From contig LJUY01000052.1 in NCBI GenBank assembly GCA_001304015.1, forward strand, positions 1-19,607: a stretch of DNA of 19,607 nucleotides, written 5' to 3'. Source of the DNA: a candidate division Zixibacteria bacterium SM23_81. GTDB taxonomy: Bacteria > SM23-81. Made by a program: the position numbers and the translations under genes. The notes beneath the pieces are model-generated. The model ran no database searches. It worked only from the letters and a program-made list of their open reading frames with translations, and had not been told where the DNA came from. This document shows, one piece after another, positions 6,615 to 19,607 of this stretch; within the stretch, counting starts at the first letter, position 1; the number at the start of each line of letters is the position of its first letter.

Positions 6615-6836
6615 TGAGAACAGACCAAAGGGCAATGCACGCGTGGTCTCGCAGGCGGCTACAGATTACGGTTTATTGGCTTTTGGTTCACCACACCTCA
6701 TAAATGCTTGGGCCAGTCAAAAAGCGTGAGTCATTTGCCTTCTATCTGAGAAGTGAGTCTACCGCGAGATGCAAACATATCCGTCACCGACGTTGTACTA
6801 ACCTGTGAACGTGAACAAAGATCAGGAGATGTAGAC

Positions 6837-7118
6837 ATGAACATAGAACACGTCCAGGGCAAAAACAGAGGACATATCATGTTGTATGCCCTGAGCACTT
6901 GCGGATGGTGCAGAAAGACGAAGCGGCTTCTTACTGAGTTGGGCGTTGAGTATTACTACGTCGATGTGGATCTTCTGGGAAAAAAGGAGAAGGATGAGGC
7001 CATGAAGACAGTGAAGCGTCATAACCCACAGCGCTCGTTCCCCACCATTGTAATCAATGAAAAAAAGGCCATAGTAGGCTATGATGAAGATGAGATAAGA
7101 ACGGAGGTGGGCAGATGA
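6837..7118 (+). CDS. Glutaredoxin/NrdH-like thiol-disulfide protein
   Basis: This 93-aa protein has a thioredoxin fold of glutaredoxin/NrdH type. The redox pair is C22-G-W-C25 after a beta strand (IMLYALST), and the cis-proline segment is SFPTIVI near residue 71. The ATG at 6837 has AGGAG 8 nt upstream. An alternative GTG start at 6753 would add 28 residues with no ribosome-binding site or conserved character, so I reject it. The stop overlaps the start of the next gene (ATGA, 7115-7118), so the two are translationally coupled. The obvious role is as the disulfide substrate reduced by the FTR-rubredoxin protein encoded next. Confidence 0.9.
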
Positions 7119-7624
7119 GAGACAGCGATGTAGCTGAAGAGGAAATCGAAAAGCTGTACCGGAGGTTAGACCAAGAAGCTGAGGAAGGTGGCTACCATCT
7201 GAATCCTGAGGTGGAGCACACCAAAGATCTCATCCGGGGGCTAATCATAAACCAGAAAAGATACGGCTATTGGGCCTGCCCCTGCAGGCTGGCTGCCGGT
7301 GTCAAGCAGGAAGACCTGGACATAATCTGCCCTTGTGATTACCGGGATCCTGACCTGAATGAATACGATGCCTGCTACTGTGCGCTCTATGTATCCGAGG
7401 TTGTCTTGAATGGTCAAAAAAAGGTAGGATCAATACCTGAAAGACGCCCGCCGGAAGAACAAAGAAAAAAGGAAAAACATAAACCAGCTGAAAAAAGCAT
7501 CCCCGGTTTGTCATTGCCGGTGTGGAGATGTCGGGTCTGCGGGTACCTCTGCGGCCGAGAGGAACCTCCTGAAGTCTGCCCCATCTGCAAGGCAAAGAAG
7601 GAGAGGTTCGAAAGATTCATTTAG
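7115..7624 (+). CDS. Ferredoxin:thioredoxin reductase catalytic-type subunit fused to rubredoxin
   Basis: This is a 169-aa two-domain redox protein. Residues about 1-105 match the FTR catalytic subunit (FtrB): three Cys pairs C55-P-C57, C72-P-C74 and C87-Y-C89 provide the [4Fe-4S] ligands and the active-site disulfide. A charged linker (about 108-132) leads to a C-terminal rubredoxin-like domain with C139/C142 (CRVCGY) and C155/C158 (CPIC) for one Fe. This matches ferredoxin:disulfide reductases known from methanogens and anaerobic bacteria, which lack the separate FTR variable subunit. It probably moves electrons from ferredoxin or rubredoxin to a disulfide on the glutaredoxin-like protein encoded just upstream with an ATGA overlap. 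Assignment as FTR-rubredoxin is firm; the physiological partners are inferred. Confidence 0.9.
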
Positions 7625-8032: not shown

Positions 8033-8569
8033 TTAGGATTTTTTTTTGTTCTCTTCCAGGAGGGCAGAACAGACCCTGCAGAAGTTCTTTGATTTGAAAT
8101 CGATTTCTTCAGCATAGGTGGTGGAGTACATTATACACTCCGGTTCCCGACAATGAATTATGCCGAAAGTGTGTCCCAGCTCGTGGATTGCCTCTTTTTC
8201 CAGACGTTCTTTCAACTTCTCCGGATTTTTGGGCAGGCCGTACAGCTCGTCTCTCAAACGGTAGGTAGAAACAACGGCCGCTTTACCAGTTAGCTGTGCC
8301 TCGCCGAAAACATAGGTCAAAACAGGAACGTAAAGATCCACCGCGGCCACCCCCAGAATTTTGCAGTCCTCATCCGGGGCTATTTCCAGAATCCGGGACA
8401 GAATCCAGGTGGAATTGTACTGGTTTCTGATGGGATCCCTTCCCCCTTCCAGGGAAAAGGATCGGTTAAGGATCATGACTGGAAGACCGAAGGCGTCTCT
8501 CAAAGCAGCTAAGAGACTGCTCAAAAGGTTTTTGTCCGTGAATTCTATGGGAAGTATATAGATGCGCAC
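8033..8569 (-). CDS. amzA: Archaemetzincin family zinc metalloprotease
   Basis: This 178-aa protein is a peptidase family M54 (archaemetzincin) member. The zinc motif is H129-E130-LG-H133-TFG-II-H139, followed directly by C140 and then C145-I-M147; the methionine is the Met-turn. A second metal site uses C140, C145, C164 and C167 (CRVC), the family hallmark. No signal peptide is present, so it should be cytoplasmic. Family length is usually near 180-200 aa, so it is complete. Its start lies 2 nt after the stop of the NtrC-type regulator, indicating translational coupling with a two-component system. Natural substrates of bacterial archaemetzincins are not established. Confidence 0.93.
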   Translation of the reverse strand: MRIYILPIEFTDKNLLSSLLAALRDAFGLPVMILNRSFSLEGGRDPIRNQYNSTWILSRILEIAPDEDCKILGVAAVDLYVPVLTYVFGEAQLTGKAAVVSTYRLRDELYGLPKNPEKLKERLEKEAIHELGHTFGIIHCREPECIMYSTTYAEEIDFKSKNFCRVCSALLEENKKKS

Positions 8570-8571
8570 AT

Positions 8572-9924
8572 TTATTTTCGCAGGCCGTATTTTTCGATCT
8601 TCTTATACAGGGTTGCTCTATCGATGCCCAGGACTTCAGCCGTTCGGGTTATGTTCCATCCCATCTGCTCCAGGATGCTCTTTATGTGGACTTTTTCCAT
8701 CGCCTCCAGGCTCTGGTCATCTGGGATCCCTTCGGGGCAAGGCGGAATGGGAAGATCACTCACGCCGATGCAAGACTCCTTAGCCACGACTATGGCTCTT
8801 TCCACGGCATTCCTCAGCTCCCGTACGTTTCCAGGCCAATGATATGCTTCGAGTTTTTCCATAGCTTCGGAGGAGAAGCCGGTTATTGATTTGTTTATAC
8901 TGTCGGCTAGTTTCTTCAGAAAATAATTGCACAGAAGCGGTATGTCAGATCGCCTCTCTCTCAAGGGCGGAATTGAAATGGAGAAAACATTCAGCCGGTA
9001 ATAGAGATCTTCTCTGAAGGTCCCTTCTTTAACCGCCAGTTCCAAATCCCTATTAGTTGCGCATATTAGCCGGAAATCGACCTTGATGAATTCATCTCCC
9101 CCCACCCGGGTGAACTGTTTGGTTTCGATGACCCGGAGAAGATCGGTCTGAGCCTTGGCGCCAATATTCCCCACCTCGTCCAGAAATATCGTTCCCCCAT
9201 CAGCCATCTCGAATTTCCCTTTGCGCCGATAGAGTGCTCCGGTGAAGGCCCCTTTCTCATGGCCAAAGAACTCGCTTTCCGTAAGCCCCTCAGTTAAACC
9301 TCCACAGTTTACCGTGATTATCGGGAAGAACCTTCTTGAGCTTTTCGAGTGAATAGCTCGGGCAATGAGCTCCTTGCCGGTTCCGCTCTCTCCTTTGATC
9401 ATCACCGTAGTATCCGTGGGAGCCACCGTCTCGATCAGATCAAAGACCTTGAGCATGGCCGGGTTTTTCCCAACAATCTGGTCTATCTCATAAAGCTCCT
9501 GGATCTGTTCCCTGAGCTGAATGTTCTCGGAAAGAAGGCGCTTCTGCTTCACAACATTAGCCACCATGTGAGACAGGTAATCAGGATCCACGGGCTTGGT
9601 CACGTAATCGTAGGCCCCCTCTTTCAAGGATTTGACTGCGGTGTCTACGGACGCATAGGCAGTGATCATGATAATGGTGGCATTAGGGTCGATTGCCTTG
9701 ATTCTCTGCTGCAGCTCCATTCCGTCCATACCCGGGAGTTTTATGTCCAAGAAGATGATGTCCCAAAGTCCCGGCTTCAGCTTTTTCAGAGCCTCAGTTG
9801 CGTCGGCGGCCGAATCTGCCTGGTATCCATCCTCGACAAACCATTTCGTCATGGAATCCCGCACGCTGAGTTCATCGTCCACAACCAGAATGCTGACCTG
9901 TCTGCTATCTTTTTTGGGATTCAT
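8572..9924 (-). CDS. NtrC-family sigma-54-dependent response regulator
   Basis: This 450-aa protein has the classical three-domain layout. The receiver (about 10-125) has D16/D17, phosphoacceptor D60 (FLDIKLP), T in MITAYAS and K in YVTKPVD. The AAA+ domain (about 150-385) has Walker A GESGTGKE at 178-185, GAFTGA at 225-230 (the sigma-54 contact loop), GGTIFLDEVGN as Walker B and arginine-finger region residues in FREDLYYRL. The C-terminus carries a Fis-type helix-turn-helix (about 408-450; NITRTAEVLGIDRATLYKKI). It is encoded 65 nt after the haem-motif kinase, its presumed phosphodonor. The sigma-54 promoter before the cytochrome operon (17224-17240) is the best visible target. Confidence 0.96.
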   Translation of the reverse strand: MNPKKDSRQVSILVVDDELSVRDSMTKWFVEDGYQADSAADATEALKKLKPGLWDIIFLDIKLPGMDGMELQQRIKAIDPNATIIMITAYASVDTAVKSLKEGAYDYVTKPVDPDYLSHMVANVVKQKRLLSENIQLREQIQELYEIDQIVGKNPAMLKVFDLIETVAPTDTTVMIKGESGTGKELIARAIHSKSSRRFFPIITVNCGGLTEGLTESEFFGHEKGAFTGALYRRKGKFEMADGGTIFLDEVGNIGAKAQTDLLRVIETKQFTRVGGDEFIKVDFRLICATNRDLELAVKEGTFREDLYYRLNVFSISIPPLRERRSDIPLLCNYFLKKLADSINKSITGFSSEAMEKLEAYHWPGNVRELRNAVERAIVVAKESCIGVSDLPIPPCPEGIPDDQSLEAMEKVHIKSILEQMGWNITRTAEVLGIDRATLYKKIEKYGLRK

Positions 9925-9989: not shown

Positions 9990-11519
9990 TCAGCTCGCCC
10001 CCTGTCGCAGGGGAAGTTCGATAATGAAATTCGACCCCTGGCCCACGCGTGTTTTAACAGCGATTTCTCCGTTATGCCTTTCTATAATGCCGTAGCACAC
10101 CGATAGACCCAAGCCTACCCCTTTGCCTTCCTTCTTGGTGGTGTAGAACGGTTCAAATATGTGCGGCAGGTCGGCATCAGATATTCCCGAGCCCGTGTCG
10201 TGAATCTCTACTTTTATCTTCCTTCTGTCCTGGTCGGCGGTGGTTTGGATGGTTAAGGTGCCGCCCTCCGGCATGGCTTCCACTGCATTATCCAGAACGG
10301 CCAGAAAACACTGCTGTATCTGGTCTTTATCACAGATCACTTCCGCCTTTCCCTGCTGGTAGTCTTTGACCAACTCCACGTTGTTCAATTTCAAATGATG
10401 CTCCACCAGCTGAGTACAGCGGTCCAAAATCCCGTGCAGGTCGACCGAAGCGAACTCTCCTATTTCCTTTTTGGAGAAGAGCAGAAGGTTTTTCACTATG
10501 TTCCCGCAGCGCATGGTTTCATCACCCACAATGGATAGGTCCCGCTGAATCGAGGAGAGCCTGTCAGGGGTCAGATTTCCGGAGTTCAACTTCTTTTGCA
10601 GAAGCCTGGCATAGGTCAATATCCCGCTCAGCGGGTTATTCAGCTCATGCGCCACGCTGGCTGAGAGTTTTCCCAGGGAAGCCATTTTTTCCATGTGGAT
10701 CAGGTGGGCCTGAATGCGTTCCAGCTCCTCACGGGCCCTTTTCAGCTCCGAGGTCATGGTGTTGAAGGAATTGGACAGCTCCCCGATTTCGTCCTTTCGC
10801 TGAAGCGGAATCTTATAGTCCAGATTCCCCTGAGCGATGGCTCTGGTGCCGGCGGTCAGCTTACGCACGGGAGCACGAATCAAAGTGTAGATCAGAAATC
10901 CGGTCACCGAAAGAACGCTGAGCACTAATATGACAGACGCCAGGATGGTCTGGTGACGGCTGCGGGCAATATCGGCGTCCACGGTCGCCAAAGACATCTG
11001 CACGTCCAGGACCCCGAGAATGAATTTCTGATCGGGGTGCAAATGACAGCCGGAGCCGTGGCAGGCCATTTCGTTTTCGATGGGATTGATCAATGCCAGA
11101 ATCCTGTGCCCGTTTGAGGACTTTATGATCCGGTGGCGTTCCTCAGTGGCCAAAGCCTTGAGCGGCTCGGGATACCGGTGGCACACCTGACAGGCCTCCG
11201 AGATGATGGAAACTTTGTTCAACCTTTCCTCGGGATTGGTGGTGAAGATTATCTCACCGTCTTTATCGTAGATCCGGATGGCCTCAAACCCGGGCATGTG
11301 GCTTAAGTTTTTGAATATTTGATGAATATCCTCCTTCCGGTTTATGAGCATACTGTAGTGAGTAGATTGTTTGATCAGATCGGTGGTCCGGAGCGCGGCC
11401 AGCTCGACCTGCTCCAGAAGGTCATCAGCTTCGCTTCTTACGTTTATATAGGTAAAAGCAGCCAGTCCGACGAACATCACCAAAAAGAGCGCGACGAAAA
11501 ACTTAAGCCCTAAAGGCAT
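9990..11519 (-). CDS. Membrane histidine kinase with periplasmic c-type haem motifs
   Basis: This 509-aa kinase starts at ATG 11519 with GAGGT upstream. A membrane segment at about 7-25 and a second at about 187-210 bracket a roughly 160-residue periplasmic sensor domain. In that domain lie C110-x2-C113-H114 (CQVCH) and C153-x4-C158-H159, the two spacings used for covalent haem in multihaem cytochromes. A HAMP domain (about 211-265) follows, then HisKA with H291 (SVAHELNNPLSG) and HATPase_c with DTGSGI and GKGVGLGLSV. Haem attachment is inferred from the motifs. The likely signal is redox state or a small ligand such as an oxidant or gas. It probably phosphorylates the NtrC-type regulator encoded next. 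Confidence 0.92.
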   Translation of the reverse strand: MPLGLKFFVALFLVMFVGLAAFTYINVRSEADDLLEQVELAALRTTDLIKQSTHYSMLINRKEDIHQIFKNLSHMPGFEAIRIYDKDGEIIFTTNPEERLNKVSIISEACQVCHRYPEPLKALATEERHRIIKSSNGHRILALINPIENEMACHGSGCHLHPDQKFILGVLDVQMSLATVDADIARSRHQTILASVILVLSVLSVTGFLIYTLIRAPVRKLTAGTRAIAQGNLDYKIPLQRKDEIGELSNSFNTMTSELKRAREELERIQAHLIHMEKMASLGKLSASVAHELNNPLSGILTYARLLQKKLNSGNLTPDRLSSIQRDLSIVGDETMRCGNIVKNLLLFSKKEIGEFASVDLHGILDRCTQLVEHHLKLNNVELVKDYQQGKAEVICDKDQIQQCFLAVLDNAVEAMPEGGTLTIQTTADQDRRKIKVEIHDTGSGISDADLPHIFEPFYTTKKEGKGVGLGLSVCYGIIERHNGEIAVKTRVGQGSNFIIELPLRQGAS

Positions 11520-11733: not shown

Positions 11734-12570
11734 TCACCAGGCCTGTTTCCCCGTCACCATAAGCTCCACTGCTAACCTTAAGCACACTTCGGCAGGCAGC
11801 ACTTGATGAAGATATCTAATGTTGACTCCACCGTCAGGAAGGGTCTGTCCTATATGGTCAACCTCCACACCTCTATGCTTAAGCAGGAATTTCAGATGCT
11901 GAGCTTCTTCCTCTAGGAATCTTCTACCCCCGCTGCCGGTGTAGAATTTCTGCAGTTCAGACGGATCTTGAGTCCAGTCTATCGTTACCAGCCAGCCCTC
12001 CCCATAAGGATCCCGTTGTGCCAGCTCCGGATCCTGGGCTAATCTGGGATTAGCTTTAACCAGAGACCCGGAAAAGGGGGCAGTCAGCAAAACCGGTCCG
12101 GCTTGGGTCGATATTCTTCCAAACATATGATCCTGCACAAGCTCAGAATCCAAATCCGAGAATTGATACTTCACCGGCGCTGGCAGGATATATGCCAGAA
12201 GCTCATCCACCCCTATTCTCCACTCGCGGCCTTTTGTCTGCCGGGCCCATAAGTGAGCAGGATGAAGATAGATCCCCTCCTTGATCTCACTTGCGGAGAA
12301 GGTGAAAAAGGGCCCAGGTGCCTTAGATACCCTGGTTGACATTCGCAGTTCATCCGGCGGCACGGGAATCTCAGATTCTTCTGGCTTGGCTTTCGATCTT
12401 ATTTTTCTCAGCTTGACCTGGGATCGCATGGCCTTATCCAGATCGCAGTGTTCACAATCGTAGTCAATGGGACACAGTTTGAAGGATATCACCCCTGCGG
12501 TCATCCAGATGCAGCGGTTTTCTGCTTTGGCTGATTCGGTACTCTTCTTTTTTGAAACCCTTTTTTTCAT
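11734..12570 (-). CDS. Soluble Cys-rich protein with GcvH-like domain lacking the lipoyl lysine
   Basis: This 278-aa protein has a basic start and a four-cysteine motif C20-x12-C33-x5-C39-x2-C42 (CIWM...CPID...CEHC) that could bind Zn or an Fe-S cluster. From about residue 101 it matches the glycine-cleavage H protein fold: HLWARQ, then IGVDELL, then APFSGSLVKAN and DPYGEGWLVTIDW. Where H protein has its lipoylated lysine, eleven residues before the SG glycine, this protein has A157. A C-terminal region (about 215-278) ends in a LPDGG-containing segment also seen, as QEGGE, in its operon relatives. There is no signal peptide, so it is probably cytoplasmic. Its start overlaps the NrfD stop by 4 nt. 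A true role in glycine cleavage is unlikely, because no gcvP or gcvT lies nearby. Confidence 0.82.
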   Translation of the reverse strand: MKKRVSKKKSTESAKAENRCIWMTAGVISFKLCPIDYDCEHCDLDKAMRSQVKLRKIRSKAKPEESEIPVPPDELRMSTRVSKAPGPFFTFSASEIKEGIYLHPAHLWARQTKGREWRIGVDELLAYILPAPVKYQFSDLDSELVQDHMFGRISTQAGPVLLTAPFSGSLVKANPRLAQDPELAQRDPYGEGWLVTIDWTQDPSELQKFYTGSGGRRFLEEEAQHLKFLLKHRGVEVDHIGQTLPDGGVNIRYLHQVLPAEVCLRLAVELMVTGKQAW

Positions 12571-13829
12571 AGAATCGCCTTACTGGTTTGAAAACTCTCC
12601 TCGAATTCCGACTCCCGGTAACCCGGGTGTTCCCTGTAAACCGGCAGCCGGTTGACAATCCAGCGGTAAACCAGGATCTCTATGGTTATTATGGCAATAA
12701 CCACGATAAATTCCTTCCAGTAGAAAAATACGCGGTGGGGCAGTTTCCAGTTAAGAGCGAACAGCGACACGTTCAACCGATTCACAGCAATGCCCAGGAT
12801 AGTAAAAAAGGCCGTAAAGCGCACCAGCCCCACACTTCTGCTTCTTACTCCCCATGCGAAGAGGAACGAAGGAAGCAGAACAAATCCAAGAAGCTCCACC
12901 AGGAACCATCGGCCGTATGTGGTGCTCAGCAAATCCCACTGGTGGCCGTGAGCCAGACCGACGATCTTCAGGCCAAAATAGGTAAAAAGGACAAAGGAGG
13001 CCGCTTTGCCCAGTCCCAGGGTGAGATCGGGTAGTCTTGCCAGATAGCCCGGGCTGTACCTGTGCTTTAGAAAACGAGAGGTAAGGGTACTCTCGGCAAT
13101 TATCATTGACAGCCCGGCGAATATGCTGGAGACAAAGAAAAACAACGGGATGAACTCTGAATACCAGAGGGGATGCAGCTTTCCCGGTGCAAGAAGAAAC
13201 AGTGCACCTAAAGCTGACTGATGGAGAGTGGATAGAATAACTCCAAAGATAGTAGCTCCTACAGTCACGGCTATGGCCCATCTGCGAAACCTGTTAGCTC
13301 CCAGCCACTCAAAGACGGCAGGGCAAAACTCGACGAACTGGGTGGAAAGGTAAAGGGCCACATGCCAGGCTACCAGGAACAGTACCGAAGCTGTCCCAAA
13401 TGAGCTGATCATAGGATAGGGAAGGCGCCAGGGACGGCCCAAATCCACCAAAAGAAACATTACAGCGAAGAAGTAACCGATGAATCCGGTAAGCACGGCC
13501 GGCCGAACCATAGGGTGGTACTGCTTTTGCCCGAAAATATAGACCGCCGACGCCATTATATAACCGGTGGCTGCCAGCGGGACACCGGTGAAAAGACCCC
13601 AGCTAAGAAACAGGCTCCAGGGCTGATCCTGAGAAGCATGGGTTACGGCCCCAAGGCCCTGGGCATAGCGCATCACGATAAAAGGAAGCCCCACCAGGAC
13701 GATTATTCCAGCCACAATGTTGAAAGGCTTTATCAGGTTTTTTAAGTAAGCTTTCAGATTCATTCCCAAGAATAGCTTCTCCCTGACCCATGACTGGAAA
13801 ACCTTTTGTTTTCCCACAAATTCAGTCAT
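12567..13829 (-). CDS. HybB/NrfD-like quinone-interacting membrane subunit
   Basis: This 420-aa, highly hydrophobic protein of the HybB/PsrC/NrfD family has roughly ten predicted membrane helices. The segment STLHQSALGALFLL followed by KLHPLWYSE is the HybB-type signature, and LVDLGRPWR is a typical family loop. Such subunits exchange electrons and protons with menaquinone or ubiquinone and dock a HybA-like Fe-S protein. The start is taken at ATG 13829: AGGAGG lies 7 nt upstream, and this gives an ATGA overlap with the preceding Fe-S gene. The ATG two codons earlier sits almost on the ribosome-binding site. No hydrogenase or molybdopterin catalytic subunit is present, so this is an orphan quinone module. 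Confidence 0.92.
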   Translation of the reverse strand: MTEFVGKQKVFQSWVREKLFLGMNLKAYLKNLIKPFNIVAGIIVLVGLPFIVMRYAQGLGAVTHASQDQPWSLFLSWGLFTGVPLAATGYIMASAVYIFGQKQYHPMVRPAVLTGFIGYFFAVMFLLVDLGRPWRLPYPMISSFGTASVLFLVAWHVALYLSTQFVEFCPAVFEWLGANRFRRWAIAVTVGATIFGVILSTLHQSALGALFLLAPGKLHPLWYSEFIPLFFFVSSIFAGLSMIIAESTLTSRFLKHRYSPGYLARLPDLTLGLGKAASFVLFTYFGLKIVGLAHGHQWDLLSTTYGRWFLVELLGFVLLPSFLFAWGVRSRSVGLVRFTAFFTILGIAVNRLNVSLFALNWKLPHRVFFYWKEFIVVIAIITIEILVYRWIVNRLPVYREHPGYRESEFEESFQTSKAIL

Positions 13830-14752
13830 GACCATTCCTCCTTTTCCTCTGGAATCACTTCCTCCTCTTCAGTCTCCTGCTCACGATTCTTAGTGAACAT
13901 GTAGAACCCTCCTAAAAGGGCAGGCCAGACTACAAGAACCGCTGGAACCATGGAGAGGAATCCCCTGGTGAATTCCGGATAGGGCTTGGTGCCGACATCG
14001 GTCGGAAGACCCACCTCTTCGAATGGGACTCCGGAGATGTACAACCAGCAAGTTCCTCCTACCTCGTGTTCGCCGTAGATGTGGTCTGTGTATTTGTCGG
14101 GACGATCCATGATCCTCTTCCTGGCAACCTTGATCAGATCCTTGCGCTTGCCGAAGGTCATGGCCTCCATGGGGCAGGCTTCCACGCAAGCCGGAATGCC
14201 CCCTTTGGAGGTCCGAGTATCATAGCACATGGTGCATTTCACTAAGTTGGGGCTGAAGGCGTTGGAATATTCGTATGCCGGAACGTAGAAAGGGCAAGCT
14301 GTCATGCAATACCGACACCCTATGCACACTTTTTCGTTCCAGATCACGGGTCCTTCTGGGGTCTTGGTCAGAGCTTTTACCAAACAGGCAGAAGCACAGG
14401 CAGGCTCGTCACAGTGGTTGCACTGAGCCTTTCTGTATACCCATTGGCCCTTGTTCTTGGGGTCAGCGTACCGATTCACGTAGGTATAATATTCGGCGCT
14501 GGCCCGCCTCTCCTTTTCCAGCACGGACCGGTCTTCAAAAGGAACTTTTGGCTGGGGCAGCTTGTTGATTTCGTTACACGCCGCTTCGCAGCTGCGACAT
14601 CCCACGCACCGAGTCAAATCGGTCAGCACGCCGAAACGATCGGGCCAGCCGGTGAACTGCTCCACCCCCCGGGCGGGCTTGGATTTGCCCAAGATGCCCG
14701 CACCTCCGGCCGCCGCGGCGATCTTAAAGAATCTTCTTCGGCTTATTTTCAT
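13826..14752 (-). CDS. TAT-exported HybA-like 4x[4Fe-4S] protein
   Basis: This 308-aa protein opens with a twin-arginine signal (SRRRFFK at residues 4-10, then an Ala/Gly-rich core to about 29). Sixteen cysteines fall into four groups: 49/52/55/59, 111/114/119/123, 143/146/149/153 and 173/176/189/193. They can hold four cubane clusters arranged as in HybA, DsrO and PsrB. A single hydrophobic helix near 272-290 (VPAVLVVWPALLGGFYMF) anchors the C-terminus, as in HybA. It should sit on the periplasmic face and wire the NrfD subunit encoded next to the octahaem cytochrome encoded upstream. GGAGG precedes the ATG by about 8 nt. Confidence 0.94.
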   Translation of the reverse strand: MKISRRRFFKIAAAAGGAGILGKSKPARGVEQFTGWPDRFGVLTDLTRCVGCRSCEAACNEINKLPQPKVPFEDRSVLEKERRASAEYYTYVNRYADPKNKGQWVYRKAQCNHCDEPACASACLVKALTKTPEGPVIWNEKVCIGCRYCMTACPFYVPAYEYSNAFSPNLVKCTMCYDTRTSKGGIPACVEACPMEAMTFGKRKDLIKVARKRIMDRPDKYTDHIYGEHEVGGTCWLYISGVPFEEVGLPTDVGTKPYPEFTRGFLSMVPAVLVVWPALLGGFYMFTKNREQETEEEEVIPEEKEEWS

Positions 14753-14782
14753 TTGCGGTCCTCCGCTTTCTTTCTTGAATCA

Positions 14783-15538
14783 TCATTTTGCTTTTGCCTT
14801 TTCTGTTTTTTCTACCTTCTTGGCGTGACACTCAGTACAGCCAGTGGGACCGGTCTCCATCTCCTTATGACAGTCCATGCACTGGAGATGGTATGCCCCT
14901 TTGAGGCCCGGCATGTTCAGATTATCAGGGTCAAAGGGTGCACCGTGACAGGTGCTACAGGAAGGAGTCTGACCGGCAGCACTGTGATGGTGGCATACCG
15001 CGCAGTCCTCCGCCAAAAGCGTATGCATTTCATGAGCGAATGAGACCGGTTCGTATATCTGCTCCAGCTGACTCAGAGTGAGAGTCTGCGGTCCGGCCCG
15101 GGGTGTTTTACTCTTACCCGGGGCCGATTGGGTGACCTGCTTTGCGTGGCAGTCGGTACAACCAGTGGGGCCCGTCTCCATCTTCTTGTGACAGCCCATG
15201 CACAGGCCATGGTATGCCTCCTTGAGGCCAGCTATCCCCATATCCTTGGCAGAAGCGGCTCCGTGGCACTCACTGCAGGGGATCGGCTCTCCTTCGGTAT
15301 GATGGTGACAGGATGAGCAATCCTCTGTGAGAAGGGTGTGCATATCATGGGAGAATCTGGCAGGCCGGTATACCTTTGCCAAGGTTCCCAGAGTCAAAGT
15401 CTCCGACTCACCTTCAGAAGAGAAAACGTCTCCGTTCTCAAAAGCGTACAAAAGAGCCAACAGGCAAATGACCGAACAAACCATGACCGACACGAAATTT
15501 CTGCTAAACATCCGATATCCTTTTGTATTTGCGTTCAT
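14783..15538 (-). CDS. Octahaem c-type cytochrome made of two cytochrome-c3-like repeats
   Basis: This 251-aa protein has eight CxxCH motifs, starting at C74, C88, C113, C127, C179, C194, C220 and C234. The sequence is an internal duplication: residues about 47-135 and 152-242 are closely similar, each carrying four haems with paired distal histidines (HDMHTLL / HEMHTLL; CHHH), as in class III tetrahaem cytochromes. An N-terminal hydrophobic helix (about 14-33) exports or anchors it. ATG 15538 has AGGT/AGGA upstream overlapping the previous gene's stop; the internal ATG at codon 10 also has a usable site. It probably conducts electrons between the HybA-like protein and a periplasmic or extracellular partner. 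Confidence 0.95.
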   Translation of the reverse strand: MNANTKGYRMFSRNFVSVMVCSVICLLALLYAFENGDVFSSEGESETLTLGTLAKVYRPARFSHDMHTLLTEDCSSCHHHTEGEPIPCSECHGAASAKDMGIAGLKEAYHGLCMGCHKKMETGPTGCTDCHAKQVTQSAPGKSKTPRAGPQTLTLSQLEQIYEPVSFAHEMHTLLAEDCAVCHHHSAAGQTPSCSTCHGAPFDPDNLNMPGLKGAYHLQCMDCHKEMETGPTGCTECHAKKVEKTEKAKAK

Positions 15539-15544
15539 TTATTC

Positions 15545-16216
15545 CTACCTCACGTTGAAAAACTCACGAGCTACCTTTTCCCACTGCTGGGACGTCAACT
15601 CATCTCCTAAATCAGGCTTGATCTCCCCTCCCTCTTGGAGGACCGGATAATCGGTGGGCACTAAACTGGAAACCAGCTGTTCTTTTACTGCTTGATTCCA
15701 CCGAGCCAGCATCTCTCCAGAGAGAAGATTTCTTACCTCCCGGACAAGATTGGTCGGCTCGATTTTCAGAATCCAGTTCTTCTCAGGGTTTTTCCGGTTC
15801 AAGAGATCCGGATTCTGAATGAACTCCTTGTTGATCTCCACGACCCTGCCGCTAACCGGGGAGGCCTGAACTAATTCTCTTTGGCCTCTTTTTATTCTCC
15901 AGGCCTTGCCACCCTGATAGATTCTATTACCCTCTTTTGGCACTTGAATCTCCTGTATCGTGCCAAAGACCGAAGATGTGAATCTGTCCATTCCCACATT
16001 CACCAGGTTGGGCTGCACAACTTCAGCCCAGGTGTGAGTGGGATGGCTGAAAATCCCCTTGACCGCCCTGGCTACCCTGGCAATCGATTCTCTGACCGGG
16101 CGGTATGGGGTGACGCTCAACAGCCTCCAGAAGAGAATAAAGGTTAAAAGAAAGAGGACAGCTATTATGTACTCATTTCCCTTGGTTGTAAGTAAGAACT
16201 CTTGAAGATTCTGCAT
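15545..16216 (-). CDS. Membrane-anchored GcvH-like protein, lipoyl lysine replaced by glutamine
   Basis: This 223-aa protein has an N-terminal membrane helix (about 13-32), then an H-protein-like domain (about 58-155): HTWAEVVQPNLVNVGM, a small beta segment, then ASPVSGRVVEIN and DPDLLNRKNPEKNWILKI. The lipoylation position aligns with Q112 (KRGQRELVQASP), so lipoate cannot attach there. A shared C-terminal region (about 165-223), with LSGEMLARWNQAVKEQL, QEGGE and WEKVAREFF, is closely similar to the next paralogue upstream in the operon. AAGGAAG lies before the ATG. It is probably a structural or accessory subunit of the cytochrome complex. Family membership is clear at the motif level; the function is unknown. 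Confidence 0.82.
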   Translation of the reverse strand: MQNLQEFLLTTKGNEYIIAVLFLLTFILFWRLLSVTPYRPVRESIARVARAVKGIFSHPTHTWAEVVQPNLVNVGMDRFTSSVFGTIQEIQVPKEGNRIYQGGKAWRIKRGQRELVQASPVSGRVVEINKEFIQNPDLLNRKNPEKNWILKIEPTNLVREVRNLLSGEMLARWNQAVKEQLVSSLVPTDYPVLQEGGEIKPDLGDELTSQQWEKVAREFFNVR

Positions 16217-16275
16217 GTGAACTTCCTTTCTGTTATACAGTTATTTCCCGTGGTCCATCCTTTTTGTCTTCTTCC

Positions 16276-16923
16276 CTATTTCCTTTTAGCCGGCGCAAAA
16301 AACTCCCCAGCTACCTTCTCCCACTGCTCAGAAGTCAATTCATTTCCCAGATCAGGCTTGATCTCTCCCCCTTCCTGCAGAACCGGAAACTGGGCCGTGG
16401 TCAACGTGGCCACCAGCTGGTCCTTGACCGCCTGATTCCATCTGCTAAGCATCTTCCCGTGAAGCAGATTCTGCAGTTCCGTTTTGAGCTTAATCGGCTT
16501 GACTTTCAATATCCAGCTTCTGCCGGTATCCTTCTGGCTCAAAAGCTGGGGATCGCTCTTCAGCTGTCTGTTTATTTCCACCACCCTACCGGTGATGGGC
16601 GAAGTCTGAACCAGCTCCCTTTTCCCCCTGCTTAAGGTCCAGGCTCTGCCGCCCTGCTGAATCAGAGTTCCCTGTTCGGGAAGGGTCAATTTGTCTACTG
16701 AGCCGAAAACAGAATTTGTGAAATCATCCGCTCCAACGGTAACCAAAGAGGGCTGAAGCACCTCCACCCAAGCGTGTCCCGGATGAACAAAGATTCCTTT
16801 CAAAAAGGGTGGAGGTTTAGCCTTGACGAGTTCCTCTTCAGGAACCCGGACAGCCTTTCTCATGCGCCAGACACCTATCCCTATAACCACCACCAAGAAA
16901 AGCAGGCCAATGAAAACCGACAT
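16276..16923 (-). CDS. Membrane-anchored GcvH-like protein retaining the lipoyl lysine
   Basis: This 215-aa protein starts at ATG 16923, with AGGAGG 8 nt upstream; a longer frame to 16968 would overlap the preceding small ORF and has no such site. A membrane helix (about 2-19) is followed by an H-protein-like domain (about 45-145): HAWVEVLQPSLVTVGADDF, then SPITGRVVEIN and DPQLLSQKDTGRSWILKV. K101 (SRGKRELVQTSP) falls exactly where GcvH carries lipoate, eleven residues before the TG glycine. The C-terminal region resembles that of the paralogue encoded next. This is the only one of the three operon members that could be lipoylated. Lipoylation is inferred, since the flanking residues differ from the classical ESVKA. 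Confidence 0.82.
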   Translation of the reverse strand: MSVFIGLLFLVVVIGIGVWRMRKAVRVPEEELVKAKPPPFLKGIFVHPGHAWVEVLQPSLVTVGADDFTNSVFGSVDKLTLPEQGTLIQQGGRAWTLSRGKRELVQTSPITGRVVEINRQLKSDPQLLSQKDTGRSWILKVKPIKLKTELQNLLHGKMLSRWNQAVKDQLVATLTTAQFPVLQEGGEIKPDLGNELTSEQWEKVAGEFFAPAKRK

Positions 16924-16928
16924 CTTGC

Positions 16929-17033
16929 TCACCTCCTGTTCTTTCTGATTTCTGATGCCCTGTGGCAAGTCTCCAAGCTCCCGCCGACTACCACAAGGAT
17001 TCTTAGAAAAAGCAAACCCAAAAGCGCTGACAT
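16929..17033 (-). CDS. Small membrane peptide, 34 aa, operon leader gene
   Basis: A 34-codon frame begins at ATG 17033, preceded by a strong AAGGAGG site, and ends at a TGA (16931-16929) that overlaps the ribosome-binding site of the GcvH-like gene. The first half is a hydrophobic helix (MSALLGLLFLRILVVVGG) and the second half is polar and basic with one Cys and one His. Its start resembles that of the following gene product (MSVFIGLLFLVVVIGI). It is too short to assign to a family. The two ribosome-binding sites and tight spacing suggest real translation, perhaps as a small subunit of the membrane complex or for translational coupling. Confidence 0.5.
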   Translation of the reverse strand: MSALLGLLFLRILVVVGGSLETCHRASEIRKNRR

Positions 17034-17223: not shown

Positions 17224-17240
17224 TGCAAATATAGTACCAA
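17224..17240 (-). promoter_or_regulatory. Sigma-54 (-24/-12) promoter of the cytochrome operon
   Basis: Read on the minus strand the site is TTGGTACTATATTTGCA. It has the obligatory GG-N10-GC spacing, TGGTAC at -24 (consensus TGGCAC) and TTGCA at -12. Transcription should start near 17213, leaving a leader of about 27 nt before the first small ORF. The NtrC-family activator at 8572-9924 is an obvious candidate regulator. Confidence 0.75.
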
Positions 17241-17672: not shown

Positions 17673-18680
17673 CTAGAAGGCCAAAACCGCACTGAACCGA
17701 TGCGCGTTCTCCAGTCTTCCCAGATCTGCCCAGGCATAGCTAATGCCCAGAGCTCCAAATCCAGGAATATCGAAATCATATCCGCCGCCGACTGCTATTC
17801 CTTCTTCATCCGTTTGCAGCTTATATCCGACTCTCAGGAATACCTTGTTCTGCCAGCTGTATTCCAGTCCAGCGCTTCCCTGCTGGCCCCGGTCGCGGGT
17901 ATTGTACCCATCCAGAGCCGCCATAACTTTGCTGTCCGGACCAAACTCAAAATCGTAGGCCACGCCCACTCGGAAGGTCAGGGGAAGGGGATGATATTCC
18001 GTGTTCAATCTTACCTCGACCGGGAGGGTAGTGGGGTCGTTGTCCTGGTCCAGGGTGGTTTCCAGCTCCGTGCCCTGATAGTGAGTATCCGACCCGAAGT
18101 TTCGGGTGGACATTGCTATCCGGAGTGTCCTGAAGCCGGTGTAGTATAACGTGCCAAGGTCGAAAGCGATCGAAGTGGACGTCAGCTCAGATATCTTCTC
18201 CCTTATAAATTTGGCAGTTACTCCGAAGGAGAAGCGATCGGTCAGCTGGTAAGCATTACTTATTCCCACAACCCAGCTGTTGGCGCCGAACATCTCTCCG
18301 GTCCCGTCGGGCTGCTCCAGGGTTGTTCTTTCCATGTCGTCCATGGTCAGAACCGCCACGTGAACTCCGATGTTTCCGAAGGTGGGCACCGACCTGGCAT
18401 AGGCCAGGTAGTTGTACCTGATGTCGGCGATCCAGTCGGTGTAGCTGAAAGCCACACTATTCCCCTCCAGGCCAGCTATTCCTGCGGGATTGTAGTAGAG
18501 GGACATAGCTCCCTGGCTGAAAGCCGCGTTCGCTCCCCCCAAGCCTACCACGCGGGCATCCACATCCAGCTTTAGAAACTGAGCGCCGGATGTGCCCACG
18601 TTGTCGAACTCCTGGGCCCAGACTTCACCTGCAAAGCACGCCACGTGGGCCACCAGCAAAAATACGAGCAACTTTCTCAT
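17673..18680 (-). CDS. PorV/UPF0164-family outer-membrane beta-barrel protein
   Basis: This 335-aa protein has a cleavable signal peptide (about 1-22, ending AQEF after VWA). GTSGAQFLKL, then ARVVGLGGANAA and SLYYNPAGIAGLEG, form the conserved N-terminal signature of the PorV/PorQ (UPF0164) family. The rest is alternating strand-like sequence ending in a hydrophobic-aromatic C-terminus (FSAVLAF), as expected for a barrel of about 14 strands. AGGAGG precedes the ATG by 9 nt. In Bacteroidetes PorV-type proteins help export or attach type-IX substrates, and the gene directly upstream encodes a protein with a C-terminal domain of that sort. Whether a type IX system exists in this organism cannot be judged here. 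Confidence 0.87.
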   Translation of the reverse strand: MRKLLVFLLVAHVACFAGEVWAQEFDNVGTSGAQFLKLDVDARVVGLGGANAAFSQGAMSLYYNPAGIAGLEGNSVAFSYTDWIADIRYNYLAYARSVPTFGNIGVHVAVLTMDDMERTTLEQPDGTGEMFGANSWVVGISNAYQLTDRFSFGVTAKFIREKISELTSTSIAFDLGTLYYTGFRTLRIAMSTRNFGSDTHYQGTELETTLDQDNDPTTLPVEVRLNTEYHPLPLTFRVGVAYDFEFGPDSKVMAALDGYNTRDRGQQGSAGLEYSWQNKVFLRVGYKLQTDEEGIAVGGGYDFDIPGFGALGISYAWADLGRLENAHRFSAVLAF

Positions 18681-18710
18681 CGCAATTTACCTCCTAAACC
18701 ATTTCATACG

Positions 18711-19607
18711 TTATCGGACCACGGCGAACTTCCCGATCTTCTCCCCGTACGGCGAGTCCACATGGTAAATGTAGATCCCGGCGGCGATCTTCTGGTTGTT
18801 CTTGGTCATCAGATCCCAGTTCTCGTTGCCGTCGAACTCATCGCTTTCATGTATCAGAGTCTCCAAATGATCGCCGGAAAGACTGTATATCCTGATGGTG
18901 CACTTGTCGGGAAGGTGAGTGAAAGCAAGCCGAGAATAGTCCCGGCTGGGCTCCCAGTTGTTACGGACAATGTAAGGATTGGGGACCACCCTGATATCGT
19001 CCAGGTTAACCAGATCAGCTTCAACTGTCGCCTTCAGGGTCTGGAAGGTGAATACATCCGTAGAGGCGTTGGGCTTGTTGGTTATGAATCTGACGATAGT
19101 TCCAGCTGCCGGTTCTCCTGCATTAAATATTATCCTTCCGATATGGAAATCAGCAGGAAAAGAGTACTCAGCGACATCCGGCAGAGGTTCGTAGTACTCT
19201 CCTTCCCAGGGATATATTCTGTCTCCAGCGCTATAGCCTCCTGATCCATCATCGTCAATGATGGCGAATTGAATTCTCAGATCATCCGATGGGTCACCCG
19301 GGGTTCCCGGCCCGATGTTCCATACCTCAAAGGGCGCTTTGTCAGGCCATTTCTCATCGGTGTTCCAATCGTAATACTCGCTGCCTGTCTCGGTGAATCT
19401 GATCTCCCAGTCATCTATTCCTATCAGGCCTCTCCAGTTCATTCGGCTGAAGTCAGAACCAGATACATCGGTGGAGACATAGAACTCATGGGTGGAGTTC
19501 CAGGACCAACCCACATTATCCGGGGGGTCCACCGGACCTTCCGCATTCTGAGTCTCGACGATGGACTTGATATTGAAATCAGGTCCGGAAACTTTGACCA
19601 GGATTCC
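18711..19607 (-). CDS. Secreted protein with FlgD/type-IX-like C-terminal domain, N-terminus outside window
   Basis: The frame is open from base 19607 to the TAA-free end at 18711, giving 298 visible residues; the true start lies beyond the window. A GTG within it (19532) is not the start, because the frame continues upstream with similar composition. The visible part is rich in Asp, Gly, Trp and Tyr, as in extracellular beta-sandwich proteins (DDDGSGGYSAGD suggests a calcium-type loop). The VVPNPYIV motif leads into a last domain (about 70 residues: CTIRIYSLSGDHLETL, NQKIAAGIYIYHV, KIGKFAVVR) of FlgD-Ig/Por-secretion-tail type. It lies 30 nt upstream of the PorV-like gene, implying cotranscription and linked export. 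Confidence 0.83.
   Translation of the reverse strand, partial: GILVKVSGPDFNIKSIVETQNAEGPVDPPDNVGWSWNSTHEFYVSTDVSGSDFSRMNWRGLIGIDDWEIRFTETGSEYYDWNTDEKWPDKAPFEVWNIGPGTPGDPSDDLRIQFAIIDDDGSGGYSAGDRIYPWEGEYYEPLPDVAEYSFPADFHIGRIIFNAGEPAAGTIVRFITNKPNASTDVFTFQTLKATVEADLVNLDDIRVVPNPYIVRNNWEPSRDYSRLAFTHLPDKCTIRIYSLSGDHLETLIHESDEFDGNENWDLMTKNNQKIAAGIYIYHVDSPYGEKIGKFAVVR

Follow-up and report, generated by a model that had tools for sequence, protein, structure and literature searches.

H-protein-fold proteins accompany an Hmc-type redox complex and a haem-motif two-component system in a candidate division Zixibacteria bacterium

Introduction

What do proteins with the fold of the glycine cleavage H-protein do in a quinone/cytochrome gene cluster? 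This question is raised by a contig of the candidate division Zixibacteria bacterium SM23_81 (LJUY01000052.1, one contig of a draft genome of 3.07 Mb in 99 contigs), which was analyzed at its full length of 19,607 nucleotides and is called the window in the following. On its minus strand, three genes for H-protein-fold proteins are interleaved with genes for redox proteins. An earlier note, made from the sequence alone, had described this arrangement and proposed that a membrane electron-transfer complex of a distinct kind contains an H-protein scaffold in several copies, one of them possibly carrying a lipoate arm. The interleaving was found as described, with a cytochrome containing eight CxxCH motifs, an HmcB/HybA-like protein and an HmcC/HybB/NrfD-type protein. 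The name Hlp is used here for the H-protein-fold proteins of the family represented by the three window genes (Hlp1, Hlp2 and Hlp3).

The architecture and the conservation of this cluster are well supported. As to its function, we infer that Hlp domains without lipoate on balance probably act as docking and regulatory modules at the cytoplasmic side of a complex of the Hmc type, which they would couple to its own redox-sensing two-component system. Compared to the earlier note, the connection to signalling is the most important addition; further ones are the resemblance of the Hlp2 anchor to HmcD and the fusions of Hlp domains to receiver domains and to an NrfD-type protein.

H-Protein Fold and Membrane Anchors

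All three Hlp proteins of the window exceed the cut-off of 22.2 bits of the Pfam model GCV_H (PF01597; Table 1). With the NCBIfam gcvH models they reached 34 to 57 bits, which is far below the curated cut-offs (117 or 115.85 bits). The AlphaFold2 model of Hlp1 was built with 50 natural sequences and has a mean predicted local distance difference test value (pLDDT) of 90.3; its residues 43-170 superpose on 1htp with a Z score of 17.8 and a root-mean-square deviation of 1.6 Å over 126 residues. For Hlp3 (pLDDT 79.2 overall, above 90 in the H-protein domain), residues 94-221 superpose on the E. coli H-protein (3a8j_E; Z score 18.1, 1.5 Å over 127 residues). The assignment of the three minus-strand open reading frames (ORFs) to the H-protein fold is thus confirmed. 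Beyond the classical fold, the C-terminal 45-50 residues form a 'GG' module (DGG/EGG) that is kept throughout the family. This confirms the common C-terminal region noted earlier, by which the fold is lengthened by about 50 residues.

As described before, two of the proteins are membrane anchored and the third is soluble and rich in Cys. Hlp1 and Hlp2 possess one N-terminal transmembrane helix each, and Hlp3 contains no such helix and a four-Cys motif. In most anchored Hlp proteins, Hlp1 among them, positive charges were found after and not before the helix, and the Hlp domain of the anchored members is therefore predicted to be cytoplasmic according to the positive-inside rule. Residues 3-33 of Hlp2 matched the HmcD model NF045712 with 30.5 bits (cut-off 34), and the homologue in genome G061 (L095) exceeded this cut-off with 41.4 bits. 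Hlp2 therefore looks like a small membrane subunit of the HmcD type that has gained an Hlp domain. In another relative (L058:133-1377, 414 amino acids), the Hlp domain is located behind a multi-transmembrane segment of no known family.

In the phylogenetic tree, true GcvH proteins form one separate clade (support 99/90). Hlp1 and Hlp2 of the Zixibacteria are sisters (100/99), whereas Hlp3 falls among deep soluble lineages. The duplication of an H-protein scaffold, as assumed in the earlier note, consequently holds as a recent local event for Hlp1 and Hlp2 and does not include Hlp3. Since Hlp1-type and HmcD-type anchors are both present in other lineages, it is possible that the globular part of Hlp1 and Hlp2 was shaped by gene conversion.

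The Residue at the Lipoyl Position

In canonical H-proteins, the Gly of the P..G motif follows the lipoyl Lys at a distance of 11 residues. The residues at the lipoyl position were determined to be K101 in Hlp1, Gln112 in Hlp2 and Ala157 in Hlp3, in agreement with the earlier note. Accordingly, a lipoyl group on K101 could act as a redox-active swinging arm of a quinone-linked complex in which the other two copies would be structural. Hlp1 and one close orthologue do have a Lys where it would be required, and a lipoate-carrying H-like protein, LbpA, serves sulfur oxidation (PMC6067878). However, the six Zixibacteria orthologues of Hlp1, including that of the window genome, have K, K, N, T, D and D at this position, the latter four being 64-67% identical. 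The hairpin that bears K101 at its tip, (K/R)RGxRxL(A/V)Q, is otherwise conserved among these orthologues.

Across 69 Hlp proteins, Lys was identified in only three, and the position is mostly occupied by Gly, Asn, Asp, Ser, Glu or Ala. Canonical GcvH proteins treated in the same way contain Lys in 18 of 19 correctly registered sequences and Arg in one; this control set excludes one sequence that was an Hlp and three that were registered wrongly, on an earlier PxxG. In addition, the ESVKA-type context of the lipoyl Lys is lost in Hlp. Because the K101 column is variable and Lys is rare in the whole family, the residue is not under selection. The lipoate arm proposed for Hlp1 is therefore highly improbable and was rejected.

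Conservation of the Gene Cluster

For the analysis of the gene neighbourhood, a profile of anchored Hlp proteins was run over 386 diverse genomes and the surroundings of the hits were annotated with profiles built in this study. Co-occurrence within 8 kb was counted for 42 Hlp loci and for 20 canonical gcvH loci from the Hlp survey genomes. Several Hlp loci are cut by contig ends, and all counts for Hlp loci are lower bounds. The Hlp genes at L104, L106 and L111 lie under longer spurious ORFs, and the counts use profile-first calling.

HmcB was found near at least 30 and HmcC near at least 29 of the 42 Hlp loci, compared to none of the 20 gcvH loci in both cases. A histidine kinase of any kind is present at 32 or more Hlp loci (3 of 20 at gcvH) and a kinase with a haem-motif sensor at 23 or more (0 of 20). 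The corresponding numbers are at least 22 against 1 for an NtrC-type regulator and at least 18 against 0 for a gene of the M54 peptidase family. In total, Hlp is accompanied by HmcB or HmcC in 26 survey genomes. The earlier note would have been contradicted by proteins without an H-protein fold or by genes that do not occur together elsewhere; both points were examined, the fold is present, and the joint conservation in many genomes argues for a distinct membrane complex with several H-protein-fold subunits.

All named public contigs on which close relatives were found belong to metagenome-assembled genomes (MAGs) of Zixibacteria. Direct phylum searches identified carriers in at least four phyla, namely that of the window and those of G045, G056 and G061, of which G056 carries the receiver-fused form of Hlp and was below the threshold of one phylum search. 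The true spread probably exceeds ten phyla, since the sampling order of the survey indicates that its first round took roughly one genome from each phylum.

Redox Subunits and the Four-Cys Module of Hlp3

HmcB is predicted to be exported by the twin-arginine translocation (Tat) pathway, with a signal score of 20.4 bits just under the cut-off of 22.7. The HmcC model matched its candidate over the full length with 467 bits, which is below the cut-off of 550. The cytochrome reached 107 bits with the HmcA model (cut-off 400) and, with its eight CxxCH motifs, is not a 16-haem HmcA. In some relatives a 13-haem cytochrome replaces the octahaem one (L001:9353-10501; L060; L107), and a 10-haem protein is encoded nearby at L053 and L100. 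In genome G009 (L052:1869-3809), HmcC is fused at its C-terminus to an HmcD-type transmembrane segment and an Hlp domain.

Among the operon proteins scanned in the window, no NarI-like or GlpC-like gene corresponding to HmcE or HmcF was recognized. This would agree with an electron exit on the cytoplasmic side by Hlp3 in place of HmcE/HmcF, with its four Cys holding an iron-sulfur cluster or zinc and Hlp1 and Hlp2 serving as the dock. The Cys module, C-(I/V)-W-M-x-A-G...KLC...C..C, is common to 11 soluble Hlp members from several lineages; in a soluble Hlp at L059:8950-10059 the four-Cys module occurs twice in tandem. On the other hand, the N-terminal Cys segment of Hlp3 was modelled with low confidence (pLDDT 52-58), and this exact module is missing at many loci. 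Hlp1 and Hlp2 contain zero Cys and no cofactor site, and no gene for an electron acceptor is conserved nearby. Such an exit through Hlp3 is thus rather improbable.

The Haem-Motif Kinase and Its Neighbours

The cluster is larger than the region given in the earlier note and additionally includes the genes for a histidine kinase, an NtrC-type regulator and an M54 peptidase (Table 1). In the sensor of the kinase, the motifs CxxCH and CxxxxCH are both invariant in 20 aligned relatives, which suggests the attachment of haem. The sensor is a distant match to the haem c sensor GSU0935 (3b42; E 3e-5) and matched Cache sensors at sub-threshold scores; the Tll0287/DUF3365 profile was not reached. It appears to be related to the sCache_heme sensors as a di-haem form, one that is missed by current profiles. 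At eight loci where the kinase adjoins Hlp and Hmc genes are missing (L046, L047, L048, L056, L059, L061, L109 and L113), the CxxCH/CxxxxCH motifs are absent.

When the 386 genomes were searched with this sensor, the best matches (E below 1e-62) were all found in Hlp-bearing genomes. Weaker matches also occur elsewhere, and some of these adjoin multihaem cytochromes. Sensors with both motifs at loci lacking Hlp are located beside HmcB/HmcC (L124) or beside cytochromes with 7 to 19 haems (L120, L125).

The phospho-acceptor Asp of the NtrC-type regulator is intact. The M54 gene lies between or beside the kinase and NtrC genes in the window and at 17 other loci, and its motif is intact at 17 of the 18 Hlp loci carrying M54. 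In these proteins HELGHxxGxxH is followed by two further conserved Cys.

Receiver-Hlp Fusions and Sigma-54 Sites

Fusions in which the Hlp domain follows a receiver domain were identified in several lineages, either as soluble or as membrane-anchored proteins with an N-terminal transmembrane segment, and the phospho-acceptor Asp is intact in 15 of 15. Such fusions lie directly beside HmcB, HmcC and the haem-motif kinase at L060, L107, L108 and L110. Membrane-anchored forms are found beside HmcB/HmcC in G056, G347, G244 and G108. The window genome itself contains two near-duplicate loci on other contigs (C87, L046; C31, L047) with a Cache kinase, two receiver-Hlp fusions and no Hmc gene. The Hlp domain therefore has a part in two-component signalling also where the redox complex is missing. 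Both loci additionally encode a HEAT/WD40-repeat protein of 1055 amino acids. A reading as a defence system was rejected: PADLOC gave no match for the three window Hlp proteins, and the receiver-Hlp fusions of the same genome matched only in the receiver half.

Of 32 Hlp genes, 15 have a sigma-54 (-24/-12) site upstream, compared to 8 of 198 other genes at the same loci (Fisher p 1.2e-9). For the window, one site was found and 0.45 would be expected by chance, so that the candidate promoter rests on the enrichment across genomes. Sigma-54 is encoded in the window genome.

These sites could also account for the nearby kinase and regulator genes, if Hlp proteins were purely structural subunits that function in the assembly or stability of the complex on its cytoplasmic face, the two-component genes controlling only expression. 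The HmcD-like anchor of Hlp2 fits such a role, as does the retention of the Hlp fold in the absence of any conserved catalytic residue. It does not explain receiver-Hlp fusions, some of them at loci without Hmc genes, or the soluble Hlp genes beside the kinase, M54 and NtrC genes at L048, L056 and L059, where Hmc genes are likewise missing. Hlp thus travels with signalling genes independently of the complex, and a solely structural role is considered unlikely.

Proposed Function of the Hlp Domains

In NrfD/Hmc complexes, electrons move between the quinone (HmcC), the clusters of HmcB and a periplasmic cytochrome. In the window, HmcC with its quinone site, the periplasmic HmcB with four iron-sulfur clusters and the periplasmic octahaem cytochrome would form such a transmembrane redox complex. 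Its cytoplasmic side would consist of Hlp subunits without lipoate, namely the HmcD-like Hlp2, Hlp1 as a second anchored copy and the soluble four-Cys protein Hlp3. These domains most likely dock or regulate instead of carrying electrons, and they might be the sites where the kinase, a receiver or the regulator come into contact with the complex. The domains would thereby link the complex to a dedicated two-component system of a periplasmic c-haem kinase and an NtrC-type regulator, the latter of which would switch on the operon from the sigma-54 promoter.

The docking of pyruvate dehydrogenase kinase, a member of the GHKL group, to the lipoyl domain L2 is a precedent for this, as an analogy and not as evidence. 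The structures 3crk and 1y8n were among the structure matches with Z scores of about 5, by fold only.

Several points weigh against docking as the function of Hlp. The NtrC-type regulator probably also controls the operon, and the shared neighbourhood could reflect only expression control and not physical coupling. The fusion of NrfD and Hlp stems from one MAG contig and joins normally adjacent genes; it could be an artefact of assembly or a frameshift. Hlp adjoins only about half of the approximately 53 HmcC-like genes and therefore marks a subset of the Hmc-like complexes. Hlp loci without Hmc genes exist, as do many Hmc-like complexes without Hlp (e.g., G111), so that neither is essential to the other.

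A more far-reaching and tentative possibility is that the respiratory complex itself is part of the signalling circuit. The H-protein fold without lipoate would then be a general docking domain of two-component systems, and the electron flow across the membrane through the Hmc-type quinone/cytochrome complex might be gated or reported by receiver-Hlp proteins through their phosphorylation or by the redox state that the haem kinase senses. If the docking function is true, the proteins labelled as glycine cleavage H-protein by Pfam would represent a separate widespread family in which a class of NrfD-type membrane complexes has its partner on the cytoplasmic side. The lipoyl-domain fold would have a non-metabolic role as a signalling dock, and respiratory electron flow would be joined to a haem-sensing two-component system.

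Organization of the Locus

The nine genes are arranged on the minus strand from position 16923 down to 8033 (Table 1). The intergenic gaps are approximately 59 bases between Hlp1 and Hlp2, 6 between Hlp2 and the cytochrome and 30 between the cytochrome and HmcB, whereas HmcB/HmcC and HmcC/Hlp3 overlap by 10 and 4 bases. Due to these short distances and overlaps, the genes from Hlp1 to Hlp3 are very likely transcribed as a single transcript. The gaps further downstream are approximately 214 (Hlp3/kinase), 65 (kinase/NtrC-type regulator) and 2 bases (regulator/M54).

Table 1. Features of the gene cluster in the window.
Feature	Position	Strand	Characteristics
Hlp1	16276..16923	-	one N-terminal transmembrane helix, H-protein-fold domain (residues 43-170), C-terminal 'GG' module; GCV_H 60.4 bits
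Hlp2	15545..16216	-	HmcD-like transmembrane segment, H-protein-fold domain, 'GG' module; GCV_H 61.0 bits
Octahaem periplasmic cytochrome	14783..15538	-	two class-III (c3) modules, 8 CxxCH; PF02085 in two stretches; HmcA/TmcA-like
HmcB	13826..14752	-	4x[4Fe-4S], predicted Tat export, C-terminal anchor; NF045715 428 bits (cut-off 420)
HmcC, NrfD/HybB-type quinone-site membrane subunit	12567..13835	-	PF03916 59 bits; NF045714 467 bits (cut-off 550)
Hlp3	11734..12570	-	soluble; four-Cys N-terminal module CIWMTAGVISFKLCPIDYDCEHC, H-protein-fold domain, 'GG' module; GCV_H 41.6 bits
Histidine kinase	9990..11519	-	periplasmic Cache-like sensor with CxxCH and CxxxxCH haem c motifs
NtrC-type sigma-54-dependent response regulator	8572..9924	-	Response_reg, Sigma54_activat, HTH_8
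M54 (archaemetzincin-like) metallopeptidase	8033..8569	-	PF07998 72.8 bits; HELGHTFGIIH intact
Candidate sigma-54 (-24/-12) promoter upstream of Hlp1	17224..17239	-	TGGTACTATATTTGCA

Directly upstream of Hlp1, a short ORF (16929-17033, minus strand; MSALLGLLFLRILVVVGGSLETCHRASEIRKNRR) was found to be similar to the membrane anchor of Hlp1 and is possibly a decayed duplicate of it. The operon is adjoined by a gene for an outer membrane protein of the PorV family and by an ORF in which a type IX secretion sorting domain is weakly matched (17673-19532, minus strand). On the plus strand, 6753-7624 encodes a glutaredoxin-like protein followed by a homologue of the ferredoxin-thioredoxin reductase beta-chain fused to a rubredoxin domain.

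Comparison With Known Systems

In the open-licence literature, no paper was found in which GcvH-like proteins are connected to receiver domains or to Hmc/NrfD complexes, which does not prove that none exists. Compared to GcvH, the Hlp proteins have the same fold (Z scores of 17-18) and retain the H.W, P..G, N and GW positions. They differ in the missing lipoyl Lys and ESVKA context, the additional transmembrane or four-Cys N-terminus, the C-terminal 'GG' module and the separate clade. LbpA, the lipoate-bearing H-protein relative of the Hdr-like sulfur oxidation pathway, is another example of an H-protein relative recruited to redox metabolism; unlike Hlp, it has kept a strictly conserved lipoate-binding Lys (PMC6067878). 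No hdr-like genes were recognized among the window proteins.

The sensor of the histidine kinase resembles the haem c Cache/PAS sensors (GSU0935/GSU0582; sCache_heme, PMC12889525) in its CxxCH motif and, according to the distant match to 3b42, in its predicted periplasmic sensor fold, but contains the second invariant motif CxxxxCH. The sCache_heme sensors are Cache sensors with one CxxCH, and properties of NO sensors were described for those fused to signalling modules; neither Hmc nor NrfD is mentioned in this preprint (PMC12889525).

A survey of Tat tail-anchored proteins covers a three-gene module of HmcB-like, HybB-like and octahaem proteins as well as the Hmc complex (Microbiology, 2024; PMC10924467). 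As in the window, this module consists of a Tat-exported HmcB-like protein with a C-tail, a HybB-like quinol oxidase subunit and an octahaem cytochrome. For this module, no conserved flanking genes are reported, and an H-protein is not mentioned in that section, whereas in the window cluster the octahaem cytochrome is c3-like, the flanks are strongly conserved and H-protein-fold proteins are present.

The cluster is similar to the Hmc complex of Desulfovibrio (HmcABCDEF, regulators Rrf1/Rrf2) in an HmcB above the model cut-off, an HmcC-type protein that is matched along its whole length but scores below the cut-off, an HmcD-like transmembrane segment on Hlp2 that likewise stays below the cut-off, a c3-type multihaem cytochrome and regulators encoded alongside (PMC10924467). 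In contrast to Hmc, it lacks a recognized HmcE/HmcF, its octahaem cytochrome replaces the 16-haem HmcA, the haem-motif kinase and the NtrC-type regulator replace Rrf1/Rrf2, and H-protein-fold domains are predicted on the cytoplasmic side.

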